Below, piece by piece: positions 7,193-28,667 of a DNA stretch of 56,896 nucleotides. The stretch comes from Cryomorphaceae bacterium (GTDB taxonomy: Bacteria; Bacteroidota; Bacteroidia; Flavobacteriales; Schleiferiaceae). The stretch's first letter is position 1; each line of letters starts with the position of its first letter. The stretch spans positions 108,723-165,618 of the forward strand of contig JAHEGI010000001.1 of assembly GCA_024639785.1 (NCBI GenBank), given 5' to 3'. Position numbers and translations under genes: made by a program. Below the pieces are notes generated by a model. It saw nothing but the letters and a program-made list of their open reading frames with translations. It ran no database searches and had not been told where the DNA came from.

Positions 7193-7510
7193 GGGACGCA
7201 ATAAAATAAAGAGTTAGGCGAACTTAATAAATGATTCCCTAAAGGTTGTAAAAAGAAAATGAAGTTCTGCCTTGAAGGGAATATAAGTGCTTGGTTCGCG
7301 ATTGAATGGACTCAAATTCGGTGATTTTGTGCTTTTAACGTGGTCTAAAGCGGTGCGAAAAAAATTTAAGACATTGATTTTGAATGAATTAAGTATTCTG
7401 ACACCCTTTGCATGCGTGAATTTGGGCAAATGCAAGTCACTTGGATGGGTCAAAAAGGAATAATCCATCTCAGTCGGATTACCTTTGTAGCCCTTGAAAA
7501 GCACAACCCG
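7193..7510. other. non-coding divergent region between sulP and arginine decarboxylase genes
   Basis: An A+T-rich stretch of 318 bases. It holds a TACCTTTG element at 7480-7487 and a weaker candidate of TTTG at 7379-7382 followed about 22 bases later by CCTTTG at 7405-7410. No RNA gene, hairpin terminator or convincing small ORF is seen. Longer open frames through it lack codon or protein features of real genes. Confidence 0.5.
7480..7487 (+). promoter_or_regulatory. -7 element TACCTTTG for arginine decarboxylase
   Basis: TACCTTTG ends 23 bases before the ATG at 7511. Its position inside any upstream-extended reading frame supports 7511, not 7412, as the start. No -33 TTTG is seen at 19 bases. 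Confidence 0.55.
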
Positions 7511-8914
7511 ATGAAAAATAAGTACGTAGACCTGATTGAACAGACCTTTGACTTCCCTCAGGAAGAATTCTATGTGGAGCAGGATGAATTGCATTGGCAT
7601 GACATTCCTTTGATGGAGTTAATCAAGCAATACGGAACGCCACTCAAGGTGACCTACTTGCCCAAAATTTCTGAGAATATTCAGCGCGCCAAGCGGATGT
7701 TCAATGTGGCCATGGCCAAGGTGGATTACCAAGGCAGTTATCACTTTTGTTACTGTACCAAGAGCTCACATTTCCAATTCGTCATGGAAGAGGCTTTGAA
7801 GAACAATATTCACTTAGAAACCTCTTCGGCATTTGATATCAATCTGATTGAGGCGCTGGAGGAAGAGGGGAAAATCACCAAGGATCAATTTGTGGTGTGC
7901 AACGGGTACAAGCGCGCGCAATACCTTGAGAACATTGCGCGCCTCATCAATGAAGGATGGTCCAACGTGATCCCCGTGATGGACAATAAAGAAGAGCTAC
8001 CCATGCTCATTGACCAAATCTCGAAAGGAAAAGGACCACTCAAAATTGGTATTCGTATTGCCGCAGAAGAAGAACCAAAATTCGAATTTTACACCTCGCG
8101 TTTGGGGATTTCGTACAAAGATGTCCTTCCGATGTACAAGAATTACTTGATGGATCAAGAGAACGTCGAACTCAAGATGCTTCACTTTTTCATCAACACA
8201 GGAATCAATGACACGGCGTATTACTGGAACGAGCTTCTCAAATGTGTCAATGTGTACATTCAGCTTAAGAAGGTCTGCCCAACGTTAGACTCATTGAATA
8301 TCGGCGGAGGGTTCCCAATTAAGAACAGCTTGAGCTTCTCCTATGATTATGAGTACATGGCGGAGGAGATTATAGCGCAAATTAAAAACCAATGCGCCCA
8401 AGCTGGGATACCCGAACCGCACATATTTACCGAGTTCGGAAGTTTCACAGTGGGCGAAAGTGGCGCGACCTTTTACTCCATTATGGGAGAGAAGAAGCAA
8501 AATGATCGCGAAAAGTGGTACATGATTGACTCAAGCTTCATGACAACGCTTCCAGACGCATGGGCGATCAATAAGCGATTCATCATGTTGGCCATTAACA
8601 ATTGGGCAACGCCTTATGAGCGCGTTCTCCTAGGGGGTCTCACGTGTGACTCGGATGATTATTACAATTCTGAGCAACATTCGAACGCGATTTTCTTACC
8701 GAAATTCTCGAGCGATGCGCCGACCCAGTACATTGGATTTTTCAATACTGGGGCATACCAAGAGAGTATCTCCGGCTATGGCGGCTTGCAACACTGTTTG
8801 ATTCCTGCTCCGAAACATGTCGTCATTTCAAGAGATGAAGACGGTGATTGGAACACGCGACTTTTTGCCAAAGAGCAGTCGTATAAGAGCATGCTCAAAA
8901 TTTTGGGCTACTAA
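7511..8914 (+). CDS. speA: arginine decarboxylase (short Bacteroidota type)
   Basis: PLP-dependent enzyme that decarboxylates arginine to agmatine, the first step of putrescine and spermidine synthesis. The 467-residue length and N-terminus MKNKYVDLIEQTFDFPQEEF match the short Flavobacteria-type enzyme, not the ~660-residue enterobacterial SpeA. Conserved stretches include YHFCYCTKSSHF (the lysine is the likely PLP-binding residue), GIRIAAEEEPKFEFYTSRLGI, LNIGGGFPIKNSL, FTEFGSFTVGESG and GLTCDSDDYYN. An upstream extension to 7412 adds 33 unconserved residues and is rejected. The DHS-family gene follows after 54 bases, suggesting one transcript. An agmatinase that could use the product is at 27591. 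Confidence 0.93.
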   Translation: MKNKYVDLIEQTFDFPQEEFYVEQDELHWHDIPLMELIKQYGTPLKVTYLPKISENIQRAKRMFNVAMAKVDYQGSYHFCYCTKSSHFQFVMEEALKNNIHLETSSAFDINLIEALEEEGKITKDQFVVCNGYKRAQYLENIARLINEGWSNVIPVMDNKEELPMLIDQISKGKGPLKIGIRIAAEEEPKFEFYTSRLGISYKDVLPMYKNYLMDQENVELKMLHFFINTGINDTAYYWNELLKCVNVYIQLKKVCPTLDSLNIGGGFPIKNSLSFSYDYEYMAEEIIAQIKNQCAQAGIPEPHIFTEFGSFTVGESGATFYSIMGEKKQNDREKWYMIDSSFMTTLPDAWAINKRFIMLAINNWATPYERVLLGGLTCDSDDYYNSEQHSNAIFLPKFSSDAPTQYIGFFNTGAYQESISGYGGLQHCLIPAPKHVVISRDEDGDWNTRLFAKEQSYKSMLKILGY

Positions 8915-8968: not shown

Positions 8969-9964
8969 ATGCGTGGACCGATTTCAAATTTTATAGACGC
9001 TCATTACAAGCATTTTAACGCAGCTGCCCTCATGGACGCGGCGAAAGGCTATGAAGCCCACTTGACTGCAGGCGGGAAAATGATGGTGACTTTGGCGGGA
9101 GCTATGTCTACCGCTGAGCTGGGTCGTTCGCTCGCAGAAATGATTCGCCAAGGCAAAATCGACATCATTTCATGTACCGGAGCCAACTTGGAAGAGGACG
9201 TCATGAACTTGGTGGCGCATAGCCATTACAAGCGGGTGCCAAACTATCGGGACCTCACCCCGCAGGATGAGCGTGAGCTTTTGGATCAAGGCTTGAATCG
9301 CGTGACGGATACCTGCATCCCAGAAGAAGAAGCGTTTCGTAAACTTCAGCATCACATTCATGGTTGCTGGTCCCGTGCAGAGGCCAAAGGGGAGCGATAT
9401 TTCCCACATGAGTACATGTATCAGATGCTCCAGCTCCCTGAATTCGCCGCAGAATACGATGACGCAGTAGACCCTGCGAATTCGTGGATGTTAGCAGCAG
9501 CAGAGCGCAACTTGCCCATCATTGTTCCAGGATGGGAAGACAGCACCATGGGGAATATTTTCGCCAGCTATTGCATTAAAGGGGAGCTCCAAGCGAGCAC
9601 GATGAAATCAGGCATCGAGTACATGGGCTATCTCGCCACATGGTACACGGAAAACTGCCGAAATCCGCAGCATCCGGAGGCTCCGAGTGTGGGCTTCTTC
9701 CAAATCGGTGGAGGCATAGCCGGGGACTTCCCAATTTGTGTTGTGCCGATGCTCTATCAGGACATGGAAATGGAAGACATCCCGTTTTGGGGATATTTCT
9801 GCCAAATTTCAGATTCCACGACTTCATACGGATCCTATTCCGGCGCTGTTCCCAATGAGAAAATCACCTGGGGCAAGCTGGATGCGGATACGCCAAAATT
9901 TATTGTTGAGTCGGATGCAACCATCGTTGCACCGCTTATTTTCGCTTGGGTATTAAAATGGTAA
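8969..9964 (+). CDS. deoxyhypusine synthase-family protein, probable polyamine-modifying enzyme
   Basis: Member of the NAD-dependent deoxyhypusine synthase (DS) family, 331 residues. Eukaryotic members move the aminobutyl group of spermidine to a lysine of eIF5A, and plant relatives make homospermidine. Bacteria lack eIF5A, so this protein probably acts on a free polyamine (inference). Visible family features are VTLAGAMSTAELG, SCTGANLEEDVMN, GWEDSTMGN, GGG (247-249) and ITWGK with K303 at the position of the catalytic lysine. The His-His that follows GGG in classical DHS is replaced by GDFP here. It follows arginine decarboxylase by 54 bases and precedes a small acidic protein by 7. Exact reaction is not assigned. 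Confidence 0.85.
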   Translation: MRGPISNFIDAHYKHFNAAALMDAAKGYEAHLTAGGKMMVTLAGAMSTAELGRSLAEMIRQGKIDIISCTGANLEEDVMNLVAHSHYKRVPNYRDLTPQDERELLDQGLNRVTDTCIPEEEAFRKLQHHIHGCWSRAEAKGERYFPHEYMYQMLQLPEFAAEYDDAVDPANSWMLAAAERNLPIIVPGWEDSTMGNIFASYCIKGELQASTMKSGIEYMGYLATWYTENCRNPQHPEAPSVGFFQIGGGIAGDFPICVVPMLYQDMEMEDIPFWGYFCQISDSTTSYGSYSGAVPNEKITWGKLDADTPKFIVESDATIVAPLIFAWVLKW

Positions 9965-9971
9965 AAGCACC

Positions 9972-10277
9972 ATGGAAAAGCAGCGTTTAATCGTTGATTA
10001 CAAGAATATCACTCCGGAACAACTACAAATCCTGACGGATAAATATCCAGAAGGTTTTGACCCGGATGACATGATCGTCTACAAGAATAGTGAGGGCAAA
10101 ACAGTCCGCACGATTCCATTAGAAACAGAGACGACGAAGTATCTATTCAAAATTTCAACAGAGCTTGAGCGCAAGGCACAAGCTTTCTTGGATGATGAGG
10201 ATGACCAGGAAGACACCGTGGGGGATGAGGAGGATACTCCAGATACCGACGCGGTGGAGGAGGTTGAAGAAGATTAA
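9972..10277 (+). CDS. small acidic hypothetical protein in polyamine operon
   Basis: 101-residue protein with no recognised domain. The N-terminal ~70 residues look folded (MEKQRLIVDYKNITPEQLQILTDKYPEGFDPDDMIVYKNSEGKTVRTIPLETETTKYLFKIS, quoted in part: IVDYKNITPEQLQ, TTKYLFKIS). The last ~30 residues are almost entirely Asp and Glu, probably disordered. It starts 7 bases after the DHS-family stop, so it is very likely cotranscribed with it and arginine decarboxylase. Such an acidic tail could bind polycations such as polyamines or a basic partner, but that is speculation. Its stop codon overlaps that of dprA on the other strand (TTAA at 10274-10277). Confidence 0.75.
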   Translation: MEKQRLIVDYKNITPEQLQILTDKYPEGFDPDDMIVYKNSEGKTVRTIPLETETTKYLFKISTELERKAQAFLDDEDDQEDTVGDEEDTPDTDAVEEVEED

Positions 10278-14269: not shown

Positions 14270-14345
<76 letters not shown>

Positions 14346-14354
14346 CAAAAACGA

Positions 14355-25333: not shown

Positions 25334-27562
25334 ATGATTACACCCTTTTCCTTTAGCGCTTGGATTCAGCCCTTTACCGCAACATTACAGCGATTGTGCG
25401 GCATGCTGGCCATCGTCTCCATGCTTTGCTCAAAACCGGCCAAAGCACAACAGGATTCCGCATATTTTTTGGATTGGCACGAGGTTGATTCAGCGCGCTG
25501 TGTGGGGAATCGGAGTCATTTTCGATGGGAGGGAGCACGGCTTAGACTGGACGCTCCAGCCGCAGGGGAGAGCCTTATTCAACGGCCCTGTGCGCTCCTT
25601 GGGGAATGGCAATTTTCTTTTCAAATCACCCTGGATTTCAACCCTTCATCGGCCAATCATTTGGTCCTTCGATGCCGGACGAATTCCGCCTCGTATTTGG
25701 AACTGCGCATCGGGGCAAATCAAGATGAATTGGCCCTGTTTGGTATCGACGCCACGGGTGAAAAGTTTCTTTGCGCCAGCCCTGACGGGATATTGGACCA
25801 AGGGCAAAACCACCTTTTTATCGAAGTAGCTCAAGATGCCCAAAAGCGTTATCGTCTTCGTTGGGTGGCACTGCCGGGAAATTCGGCCTGGGGAGAAGTA
25901 CGTTCAGCACCAGACAGCTTGATGCCCCCGATAGCGCACCTTGAATGGCTAGCCCACTATACCGCCACGCGAAGAGATAAATTCTCTTGGTCTTCACTTT
26001 GGGTGTCTACTTCGAGAGGGATGCCGTGGAATCTCCCGACGGACTGGCGTTGGACGGAGGTTCTATCAAATCCCGCACCCATAATAGCAGGGGTTTCACC
26101 GACGGAAGATTTTCTGGAAGGGGAGTTACTTGGACTGGGGCCCACACTCATGGCGGATTGGACCCTGAGAGTGAATCAAAGGGATTATTCATTGCCTCCT
26201 ATTTGGCTCCAGGTAGGGCAGCCTGTGGTGATTGGTCCGGAATCTTTAAGGTCAATTCTTCCGCCAACGGCGATCCTTTGGCCTGCCGAGTTGGATTTGC
26301 CTGGGGAAGCAGAGATTCAACTCGAACACAGCGGTGGGGGCCATCTGGGGGAATGGGCCTACAGCCAAACCTGGCATCGGCCTGCAGATAAGGCGCAAGG
26401 GGGGTACAGTTTGGAGCCAAGCCATCAAGCCCAGGCATGCTTGCCGGCCACATGGCATTCTAATTCGGAGATATCAGGCACCAGTCTCGGGCACTTTCCC
26501 AAGGGAGAAATGAGACCCATCGCATTGAATTATCCGGCACTTCGGGCTCAGGTGGATAGCTTGGGACGCCCGACGCTATATGTGGCGTGGAAGCATCCGT
26601 TGAACCCGCAGACGCTCCCATCCAACTCCGATGGGGAATGGCATCATGAACGTCCAGGCTACAGTACTTGGAGACCATTTTTACCTCCACTGCCTGGAGA
26701 GGTTTGTACTATTCTGTTGCCTAGTCAGTGGACTACTTGTTCAGGTGAAGTTTGGGGGTTTGATTCCTTGCGATGGGGATGGCCGCGCATCCCTGCTCCG
26801 GGGGAACTGCAATGGACCGAATTGCTCGCAGACCCTTTGCCTTACGAGCCTCGTTTCATCGAGTTGTATAATTCGACAGAGGAGGTACTGGATGTGGGCG
26901 CGCTGTTTGTCGCTGACGCTCCGTGGCCAACGGAATGGAAACGCTTAGGGAGTCTAGGCGAGTTTATTATGCCAGGGGAGGTCTGGGCGTACAGCGAAGA
27001 CCCCCAGCTCAGCAAAAAGCGTTATCCCGCGGGGGATTCGGGACAAATTCGACCATTGGTCGACCATCTTTGGTCGATCAAAGTGGGGGACTACGTCGGT
27101 CTATTCCGGAGTGACGGCTTGGAAATCAGTCATATGGAAGGCATGGAGCATGCGGGAGCCTTAGGTAGTCAATGGGAGGGCTTATCCTGGTCCCGAAACG
27201 CCGAGGGGGATTGGCTCACCTCGGGCGATTCTGCTTCCCCGGGCCGATGGCAACCCTTCACCCGCACAAATTCAGGAAACGGCCGCGTGGATTTGCTTCA
27301 GCCTGATTGGTCTCTTCTCCTTCGGCCGCAGGTGGCATTTAAATTTCGAGAGGAGGGGGCGTGGCAACTCCGGGAGCGGTGGCTTCATATTCGAGGCGAT
27401 GGATGGACGGCATGGTCGGCGGCGGTTGTGCGGCCCTCGGAGGGAACCTGGACCTCTGCGCTACCGCCGCCGCCCGGCAGGGAATGGATGTGGGAATTGG
27501 AATGGACATCACCGTCAGGGGGTATTCGTCGTCGGGCTTTCATGCTAAAAATGCGTGAGTGA
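25334..27562 (+). CDS. secreted lamin-tail-domain protein
   Basis: Exported protein of 742 residues. The N-terminus has a hydrophobic segment (LQRLCGMLAIVSMLCSKPAKAQ) consistent with a signal peptide. Residues ~50-230 look like a beta-sandwich, possibly a LamG-like domain (SFQITLDFNPSSANHLVLRC, HLFIEVAQD). Near residues 490-600 there is a lamin-tail-domain-like stretch (LQWTELLADPLPYEPRFIELYNSTEEVLDVGALFVAD), and WTEVLSNP suggests a second start of such a motif near 235. No T9SS C-terminal domain is recognised. The ligand or role is unknown. ATG at 25334 is used; the frame opens 60 codons earlier inside asd and is rejected. The G+C-rich 3' part has many Trp residues. Confidence 0.72.
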   Translation: MITPFSFSAWIQPFTATLQRLCGMLAIVSMLCSKPAKAQQDSAYFLDWHEVDSARCVGNRSHFRWEGARLRLDAPAAGESLIQRPCALLGEWQFSFQITLDFNPSSANHLVLRCRTNSASYLELRIGANQDELALFGIDATGEKFLCASPDGILDQGQNHLFIEVAQDAQKRYRLRWVALPGNSAWGEVRSAPDSLMPPIAHLEWLAHYTATRRDKFSWSSLWVSTSRGMPWNLPTDWRWTEVLSNPAPIIAGVSPTEDFLEGELLGLGPTLMADWTLRVNQRDYSLPPIWLQVGQPVVIGPESLRSILPPTAILWPAELDLPGEAEIQLEHSGGGHLGEWAYSQTWHRPADKAQGGYSLEPSHQAQACLPATWHSNSEISGTSLGHFPKGEMRPIALNYPALRAQVDSLGRPTLYVAWKHPLNPQTLPSNSDGEWHHERPGYSTWRPFLPPLPGEVCTILLPSQWTTCSGEVWGFDSLRWGWPRIPAPGELQWTELLADPLPYEPRFIELYNSTEEVLDVGALFVADAPWPTEWKRLGSLGEFIMPGEVWAYSEDPQLSKKRYPAGDSGQIRPLVDHLWSIKVGDYVGLFRSDGLEISHMEGMEHAGALGSQWEGLSWSRNAEGDWLTSGDSASPGRWQPFTRTNSGNGRVDLLQPDWSLLLRPQVAFKFREEGAWQLRERWLHIRGDGWTAWSAAVVRPSEGTWTSALPPPPGREWMWELEWTSPSGGIRRRAFMLKMRE

Positions 27563-27575
27563 TGCACGCTCCACC

Positions 27576-27583
27576 TACTTTTG
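27576..27583 (+). promoter_or_regulatory. -7 element TACTTTTG for agmatinase, very short leader
   Basis: TACTTTTG ends only 7 bases before the ATG at 27591. Transcription would begin at or just before the start codon. It argues for 27591, not the GTG at 27555. Confidence 0.5.
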
Positions 27584-27590
27584 TAGGGTG

Positions 27591-28667
27591 ATGAGAAAAG
27601 AACAGGCCACGCAACGTGCGGCGAAGCGTCAAGCACAGGCCCAGAATTTTGACCCAAATGGCTTGGCGGCCCCTGGCCACGTGTATGGACTGCCCTACGA
27701 TGGGGAATCGGCGGAAGTCGTTATCCTCCCAGTACCTTGGGAAGTGACCGTGAGCTATGCTTCGGGAACCGCCCGCGGTCCAGAAGCGATGCGTGAAGCC
27801 TCTGCACAAGTAGATTTATATGACCCCGCGGTAGATCAAGCATGGAAAATGGGCCTTTGGATGGCTCCGAACCCAAGTAAGCTTGCCGCCAAATCAGAAC
27901 GGAATCGCGAACGTGCCGAGGCCTACTTGGAAGCCCTAGCAGAAGGCTTGCCGATGCAGCGCATGATCAAAAACCACGAGAAGATTGAAGCGGCATGTCG
28001 CTACATGATCGATTGGGTTTCGGAGCAAGCCCTACACTATCTGGATCAGGGTCAATTGGTGGCCCTCCTCGGCGGTGACCACAGCACCCCCTTAGGCTAC
28101 ATTCAAGTCTTAGCAGATCGAAACCCAGGTATGGGGATTCTCCAAATTGATGCGCACATGGATTTGCGTAAGGCTTATGAGGGCTTCACGTATTCCCATG
28201 CCAGTATCATGTACAATGCCATGAAGCATGAGGGCATTGCTCGATTAGTTCAGGTAGGAATCCGGGACTATTGTGAGGAGGAATTGGAGGTAATGCAGGA
28301 TTTGGGAGACCGGATTTCTGTGTTTTTCGATCGAGACTTGAAGCAAGCACAATTTCAAGGGAGTACCTGGGCTGCTCAAGTGGATTTGATCGTGGCAGCA
28401 CTTCCGCAAAAGGTCTATCTCAGCTTCGACATCGATGGCTTGGACCCCAAGCTATGCCCACATACCGGTACGCCAGTAGCCGGGGGGTTTGAAGTAGAGC
28501 ACATCCTCTTCCTTGTAGAGCAAGTCATCGCTTCGGATCGGCACATTATTGGCTTTGATTTAAATGAAGTAGCTCCAGGCCCTGAAGGGGATTGGGATGC
28601 CAATGTCGGAAGCAGACTACTCTATCGTCTCTGCAATTTATTGGGAAAATCCAACGAAAGAATCTAA
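27591..28667 (+). CDS. agmatinase-family ureohydrolase
   Basis: Binuclear manganese ureohydrolase expected to split agmatine to putrescine and urea. 358 residues. Metal-ligand motifs are GGDHS (H164), DAHMD (D187, H189, D191) and SFDIDGLDP (two further Asp ligands near 280). TVSYASGTARGPEAMREAS and YSHASIMYNAM are typical of the Bacteroidota agmatinase-type clade; formiminoglutamase or arginase activity cannot be fully excluded. The arginine decarboxylase that would supply agmatine is 17 kb away at 7511, whereas many flavobacteria keep these genes together. ATG 27591 is preferred over GTG 27555 because of the promoter element between them. Confidence 0.88.
   Translation: MRKEQATQRAAKRQAQAQNFDPNGLAAPGHVYGLPYDGESAEVVILPVPWEVTVSYASGTARGPEAMREASAQVDLYDPAVDQAWKMGLWMAPNPSKLAAKSERNRERAEAYLEALAEGLPMQRMIKNHEKIEAACRYMIDWVSEQALHYLDQGQLVALLGGDHSTPLGYIQVLADRNPGMGILQIDAHMDLRKAYEGFTYSHASIMYNAMKHEGIARLVQVGIRDYCEEELEVMQDLGDRISVFFDRDLKQAQFQGSTWAAQVDLIVAALPQKVYLSFDIDGLDPKLCPHTGTPVAGGFEVEHILFLVEQVIASDRHIIGFDLNEVAPGPEGDWDANVGSRLLYRLCNLLGKSNERI

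Follow-up and report, generated by a model that had tools for sequence, protein, structure and literature searches.

The gene at 8969-9964 of the window, by which we mean the whole 56,896-nucleotide stretch of Cryomorphaceae bacterium DNA that was analysed, encodes a homolog of deoxyhypusine synthase (DHS) and lies downstream of an arginine decarboxylase-like gene, which raises the question of what such an enzyme makes in a bacterium, and from which substrate. The open reading frame begins with an ATG at 8969, ends with a stop at 9964 on the + strand, and encodes 331 amino acids.

8969-9964, + strand: type C (third-class) DHS homolog, proposed homospermidine synthase, recognised by PF01916, by a structural model compared with 1dhs and by relatives of 66-81% identity

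The protein matches the deoxyhypusine synthase family PF01916 with an E-value of 1.9e-40 (139.4 bits against a gathering score of 27), and at E 0.01 or better it finds 17 solved sequences, every one annotated as a deoxyhypusine synthase or a related protein. An AlphaFold model built from 61 input sequences (mean pLDDT 83.6, pTM 0.86, residues 283-298 below 50) aligns with human DHS (1dhs) over 287 residues, with a Z of 25.2 and an rmsd of 3.0; the top structural chain is 8put_A, at Z 25.7, and the best Foldseek E-value is 2.8e-11. In the predicted structure, then, the window protein has the fold of human DHPS and archaeal DHS, and of the bacterial homologs SpeY (Anabaena, Ca. Pelagibacter) and CdmS (Thermus thermophilus TTHA1570). 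Between 7200 and 10400, one promoter-like site was found against a shuffled mean of 4.9, and seven terminator-like sites against 3.7 (sd 2.3); neither count is given weight here.

The DHS homologs of Bacteroidota fall into three classes, namely SpeY, CdmS and a third, here called type C, which includes the window protein. Of 296 genomes drawn phylum-wide, 233 had a PF01916 match, exactly one in 230 of these, and among the matches listed the scores grouped into three bands, roughly 275-350, roughly 225-250, and some 150 or below. When lowest-band genomes were probed with the window protein, 61 of 61 matched, its own genome at 100% identity and 60 other Bacteroidota genomes at 66-81%; none of nine genomes without PF01916 that were probed alongside did so. 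Against seven NCBIfam DHS-type models the protein scored 109.6, 105.9, 100.4, 96.2, 82.3, 78 and 63.2 bits, where the cut-offs are 304 to 500, and it fell under the cut-off of all five DHS models, of the SpeY model NF001980 (109.6 of 450 bits; relatives L007 and L008 are under as well) and of the CdmS model NF002699 (82.3 of 500 bits). Judged by the curated models, it belongs to neither SpeY nor CdmS. In a tree of 24 proteins, the three bacterial classes and a eukaryotic/archaeal group separate from one another, with support of 97/96 or more for each, but the stem of the window class is long (4.1 changes per column) and the tree program flags long-branch joins, so that the tree does not fix the nearest relative of this class. 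The named relatives, which are the best 80 of at least 591, come from Flavobacterium (three records, L068, L074 and L097), Chryseobacterium, Pedobacter, Mucilaginibacter, Chitinophaga and many MAGs. To name such proteins deoxyhypusine synthase, SpeY or CdmS is unsafe.

The active site was compared in an alignment of the window protein with 12 relatives, human DHS and eight other Bacteroidota DHS homologs, of which L015, L016 and L017 pass NF001980, L018, L019 and L020 pass NF002699, and L014 and L021 were assigned to a class by residues and tree and not by NCBIfam scan. Human numbering was checked by the WGK lysine, which falls on 329. Conservation is given for alignments A1 and A2, the latter having 61 rows, made up of the window protein plus 60 taken from the 80 named loci.

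9539-9556, + strand: DSTMGN, residues 191-196, with D191 at human D238 and N196 (invariant in A1 and A2) at human D243 by alignment
9707-9733, + strand: GGGIAGDFP, residues 247-255, with D253 at human His288 by alignment; human DHS has GGGVVKHH
9836-9838, + strand: codon of Y290, at human D316 by alignment, invariant in A1 and A2
9875-9877, + strand: codon of K303, the catalytic lysine in ITWGK, at human K329 by alignment

Lys329 and His288 of human DHS are described as critical in catalysis, and Asp243, Asp316, Glu323 and Trp327 as taking part in spermidine binding (PMC9117371, in excerpt). The window protein keeps Lys329, Trp327 and Glu323 (as K303, W301 and E297, all invariant in A1 and A2), and replaces His288 by D253, Asp243 by N196 and Asp316 by Y290; these equivalences rest on sequence alignment, and Y290 and E297 lie within the stretch of the model at 283-298 with pLDDT below 50. 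The first-pass annotation was right that the lysine of ITWGK is kept and that the His-His after GGG is replaced: GGGIAGDFP occurs at every one of 62 related loci, which come from 61 genomes and count the window among them, and is invariant across A2. Its position for GDFP, 251-255, was off by one residue, as GGG (247-249) is followed by I250, A251, G252, D253, F254 and P255, which puts GDFP at 252-255.

All three bacterial classes keep Glu323, Trp327 and Lys329, and they differ at the replaced positions. At His288 the SpeY and CdmS classes (four proteins each) have Asn whereas type C has Asp; at Asp243 SpeY has Met, CdmS has Phe and type C has Asn; and at Asp316 the residue is Leu in SpeY, Leu (with one Cys) in CdmS and Tyr in type C. 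Lys287 is kept by SpeY and CdmS but is Gly in type C. The CdmS-class proteins examined here agree with the Phe and Leu reported for CdmS at Asp243 and Asp316 (PMC10981699, in excerpt). The missing His-His had been taken as a sign of an unusual acceptor. It is no evidence for one, because SpeY, which makes homospermidine, and CdmS, which makes caldomycin, both with published products, also do without His288, and the loss was rejected as a sign of a novel acceptor on the same ground; the missing His-His alone says little about bacterial DHS homologs. Nor is a dead enzyme favoured, since K303, W301 and E297 do not vary in either A1 or A2. The residues D253, N196 and Y290 may shape a pocket for a diamine, and they differ from those of SpeY at all three changed positions, which counts against the proposed homospermidine synthase.

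The genes on either side of the DHS homolog bear on its substrate.

7511-8914 (listed ORF 7412-8914), + strand: short arginine decarboxylase-like protein, 467 aa from the likely start; PF02784; SpeA models are the best NCBIfam matches, under cut-off; found beside type C DHS elsewhere
9972-10277, + strand: acidic protein of 101 aa, its start 7 bp past the DHS stop; homologues adjoin type C DHS

The decarboxylase frame is listed from 7412, but the N-termini of homologues suggest a start at 7511; it ends 54 bp before the DHS start. The earlier identification of an arginine decarboxylase neighbour holds as far as a same-strand, upstream, SpeA-like gene, and the name itself rests on best match and context, since both SpeA models score under their cut-offs (173.1 of 369 and 167.5 of 624.1 bits). 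The 101-aa protein has no Pfam or NCBIfam match at E 0.01, and next to type C DHS its homologues occur at 15 of the 62 loci (counting the window) and, at E 1e-3, at 9 of the 80 named ones.

We counted neighbours at 62 type C loci (61 genomes) as same-strand genes within about 5 kb, each assigned by its best phmmer match to nine queries. An arginine decarboxylase is present at 30 of these loci: a short form with an agmatinase-type ureohydrolase at 13, the short form only at 10 (the window among them), full-length SpeA with N-carbamoylputrescine amidase and agmatine deiminase at six, and SpeA only at one, on a short contig. Two further loci have only a weakly similar ureohydrolase, and the remaining 30 have none of the tested polyamine genes in that range; both groups count against the proposed homospermidine synthase. 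The ureohydrolase of L007, the one of the 13 that was scanned, passes the agmatinase model TIGR01230 (234.6 of 174.3 bits). At L008, SpeA is over both cut-offs (656.6 of 624.1 and 767.7 of 369 bits), and the agmatine deiminase and N-carbamoylputrescine amidase are best matches but under cut-off. Among the 80 loci that were chosen for closest similarity, however, the decarboxylase is on the same strand in 10 and on the other strand in two more, several of the contigs being short. The earlier question whether the decarboxylase-DHS pair is conserved in Bacteroidota thus receives a partial yes, as the pair is frequent in some lineages and missing from others. Six decarboxylase-ureohydrolase-DHS loci (L007, L002, L004, L005, L132 and L140) also encode, on the same strand, a fusion of a GNAT acetyltransferase with a carbon-nitrogen hydrolase (507 aa in L007, at L007:6539-8062).

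Beside the same DHS class, therefore, stand two types of decarboxylase and two routes from agmatine, which meet at putrescine, and it is for this reason that putrescine is favoured as substrate. The earlier suggestion of a different polyamine or acceptor, perhaps derived from agmatine, fares well on context, though not on the His-His argument: the protein is a bacterial DHS-family enzyme that most likely acts on a free polyamine, its substrate is probably derived from agmatine, and the neighbouring genes suggest putrescine formed from agmatine, more than agmatine itself. We consider it probable that the type C protein is an NAD-dependent homospermidine synthase of DHS fold, the third class in bacteria alongside SpeY and CdmS, and that it would use a lysine imine and putrescine made from agmatine. 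The upstream enzyme would decarboxylate arginine to agmatine, and an agmatinase, here probably ORF 27555-28667, would convert this to putrescine, the same step being carried out elsewhere, presumably, by agmatine deiminase and N-carbamoylputrescine amidase. In analogy to DHS (PMC9117371, in excerpt), the type C enzyme would oxidise one putrescine with NAD and keep the aminobutyl group bound to K303 as an imine; the group would pass to a second putrescine, and reduction of the product would yield sym-homospermidine. The proposed chemistry follows by analogy from DHS and SpeY. The fold, the kept Lys329, Trp327 and Glu323, the decarboxylase operons and the complementarity with spermidine pathways described below support this function.

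SpeY offers a close parallel, in that it shares the fold and kept residues, lies beside arginine decarboxylase and agmatine-to-putrescine genes and makes homospermidine, although type C forms a separate clade. Burnat et al. 2018 is said to be a study on Anabaena SpeY. Excerpts of the literature describe homospermidine in Anabaena as made by SpeA, SpeB and SpeY (PMC10385936), SpeY clusters elsewhere with SpeB or AguA/AguB (PMC10407285), and a Ca. Pelagibacter cluster of DHS/SpeY with agmatine deiminase and N-carbamoylputrescine amidohydrolase (PMC9992855). Type C can be read as an uncharacterised but interpretable enzyme class that would work like SpeY. Homospermidine is given as the major polyamine of Weeksella virosa, as in all members of the Flavobacteriaceae, in part of its genome paper (PMC3072086), and a passage on two Flavobacterium species reports sym-homospermidine at 27.3 and 20.5 umol/g against spermidine at 0.2 and 0.3 (PMC8570120). 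The excerpts of the literature searched name no homospermidine enzyme for Bacteroidota, and type C fits this gap.

The main rival to homospermidine from putrescine is a coupling of agmatine like that of Thermus CdmS, in which agmatine would be joined to agmatine, giving caldomycin, or to putrescine, giving N1-aminobutylagmatine, and a ureohydrolase would trim the product to homospermidine. The 13 loci that unite decarboxylase, agmatinase-type ureohydrolase and DHS fit it too, and CdmS, a DHS homolog with an agmatine metabolism context, is reported to use agmatine only (PMC10981699, in excerpt); the window pair has no adjacent ureohydrolase, yet its genome encodes an agmatinase-like one. The low CdmS-model score and the different pocket residues speak against it, as do the six loci where DHS is paired with the putrescine-forming enzymes agmatine deiminase and N-carbamoylputrescine amidase, and on balance we regard it as unlikely. 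Somewhat more doubtful still is a variant in which the type C active site, with Asp for His288 and Asn and Tyr for the two amine-binding aspartates, works differently from those of SpeY and CdmS and couples agmatine with putrescine to a guanidino-triamine, which a ureohydrolase then trims to homospermidine; the literature searched holds no description of such a route in Bacteroidota.

For synthesis from putrescine, the window's genome (1.82 Mb, 98.3% complete) would have to supply the step from agmatine.

27555-28667, + strand: agmatinase-like ureohydrolase, 370 aa; PF00491; TIGR01230 is the best NCBIfam match at 156.2 of 174.3 bits, under cut-off; motifs read by eye

Its GGDHS, DAHMD and DIDGLDP motifs are intact by eye, and it is likely the agmatine-to-putrescine step of this genome. 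It is one of four PF00491 proteins there, the others being arginase-like (215.5 of 227.6 bits), HutG-like (61.3 of 229 bits) and diverged. Searches of the genome for agmatine deiminase, carboxyspermidine decarboxylase (CASDC), SpeD and SpeE each gave no match. The bacterial homospermidine synthase HSS of the Blastochloris viridis type would share the proposed product, and is described in an excerpt as non-homologous to SpeY (PMC9992855); the only PF03435 protein of the genome is closest to saccharopine reductases. As there is one PF01916 protein, no match to CASDC, SpeD or SpeE, and a PF03435 protein nearest to saccharopine reductases, no other triamine route is seen in this genome, and another enzyme as its triamine synthase was rejected on these grounds. 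A diverged 384-aa arginase-fold protein, L024:1117-2271 (G000 contig C10), reaches 73.5 of 229 bits with the HutG model; the usual GGDHS and DxHxD motifs were not seen in it by eye, and it is flanked by ORFs that we take to be topoisomerase-like and PorP-like.

For the spermidine pathways we surveyed 80 genomes, 61 with type C and 19 without PF01916; the latter are 19 of 20 named among 63 without a match in the phylum-wide draw. CASDC was over cut-off in none of the 61 type C genomes and in 8 of the 19 DHS-less ones. Forty further genomes gave CASDC matches, none above 71.8 bits where the cut-off is 409; we read these as other decarboxylases of the CASDC fold. SpeD-family matches were found in 17 of the 80 genomes, nine of them DHS-less (other than those with CASDC) and eight with type C, where three are strong (G061, G064 and G088) and five weak yet over the Pfam cut-off. 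Type C is complementary to the spermidine routes through CASDC and SpeD, with Fisher p-values, uncorrected for kinship, of 1.8e-12 counting strong SpeD only and 1.4e-9 counting all SpeD matches; families f6 and f24 each hold both type C and DHS-less genomes. The eight type C genomes with SpeD, where spermidine may be available, count against a homospermidine synthase, and so do two DHS-less genomes with neither CASDC nor SpeD. These two, G103 and G134, look complete and belong to the same order; PF01916 and SpeD give no match in either, and CASDC none over its cut-off.

The homospermidine synthase of plants arose from DHS, and three type C genomes have strong SpeD matches; both speak for a plant-like, spermidine-dependent type C enzyme. 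But SpeD gives no match in 53 of the 61 genomes with type C, CASDC is over cut-off in none, and the window's own genome has no SpeE match; the spermidine ligands Asp243 and Asp316 and the catalytic His288 of human DHS are, moreover, all replaced. The corresponding reaction of spermidine with putrescine is described for the plant type (PMC10981699, in excerpt), and we think it very unlikely here. The same complementarity with free-triamine pathways speaks against modification of a protein lysine, whether in EF-P or in the downstream 101-aa protein, in the way that DHS acts on eIF5A. Such a role would account for the kept fold and catalytic lysine and for a conserved small protein after the gene in part of the clade, but that protein accompanies DHS at only the 15 loci counted above, and we hold it to be the least probable of these readings. 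Excerpts of PMC2821294 and PMC8437039, on EF-P modification and SAR11, have no direct bearing on the type C class.

Homospermidine synthesis from putrescine might also seem to follow wherever a genome has no ureohydrolase with which to trim an agmatine product. PF00491 is absent from 5 of the 61 type C genomes, four of which have agmatine deiminase, and this speaks to some degree against coupling of agmatine. It argues weakly, however, because PF00491 is absent as well from 20 of 40 CdmS-band genomes, and the absence was kept as no more than weak support for putrescine; in the SpeY band it is absent from 1 of 14, where both bands were set by PF01916 score and three proteins per band were scanned with NCBIfam. 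The CdmS-class Bacteroidota proteins that were scanned, L018, L019 and L020, pass NF002699, and belong to the high-scoring CdmS band, in which 20 of the 40 genomes have no PF00491; either caldomycin is left untrimmed there, or the curated CdmS name is too wide. Within the window itself, ARAGORN finds a single tRNA gene, tRNA-Ala (ggc), at 14272-14346.
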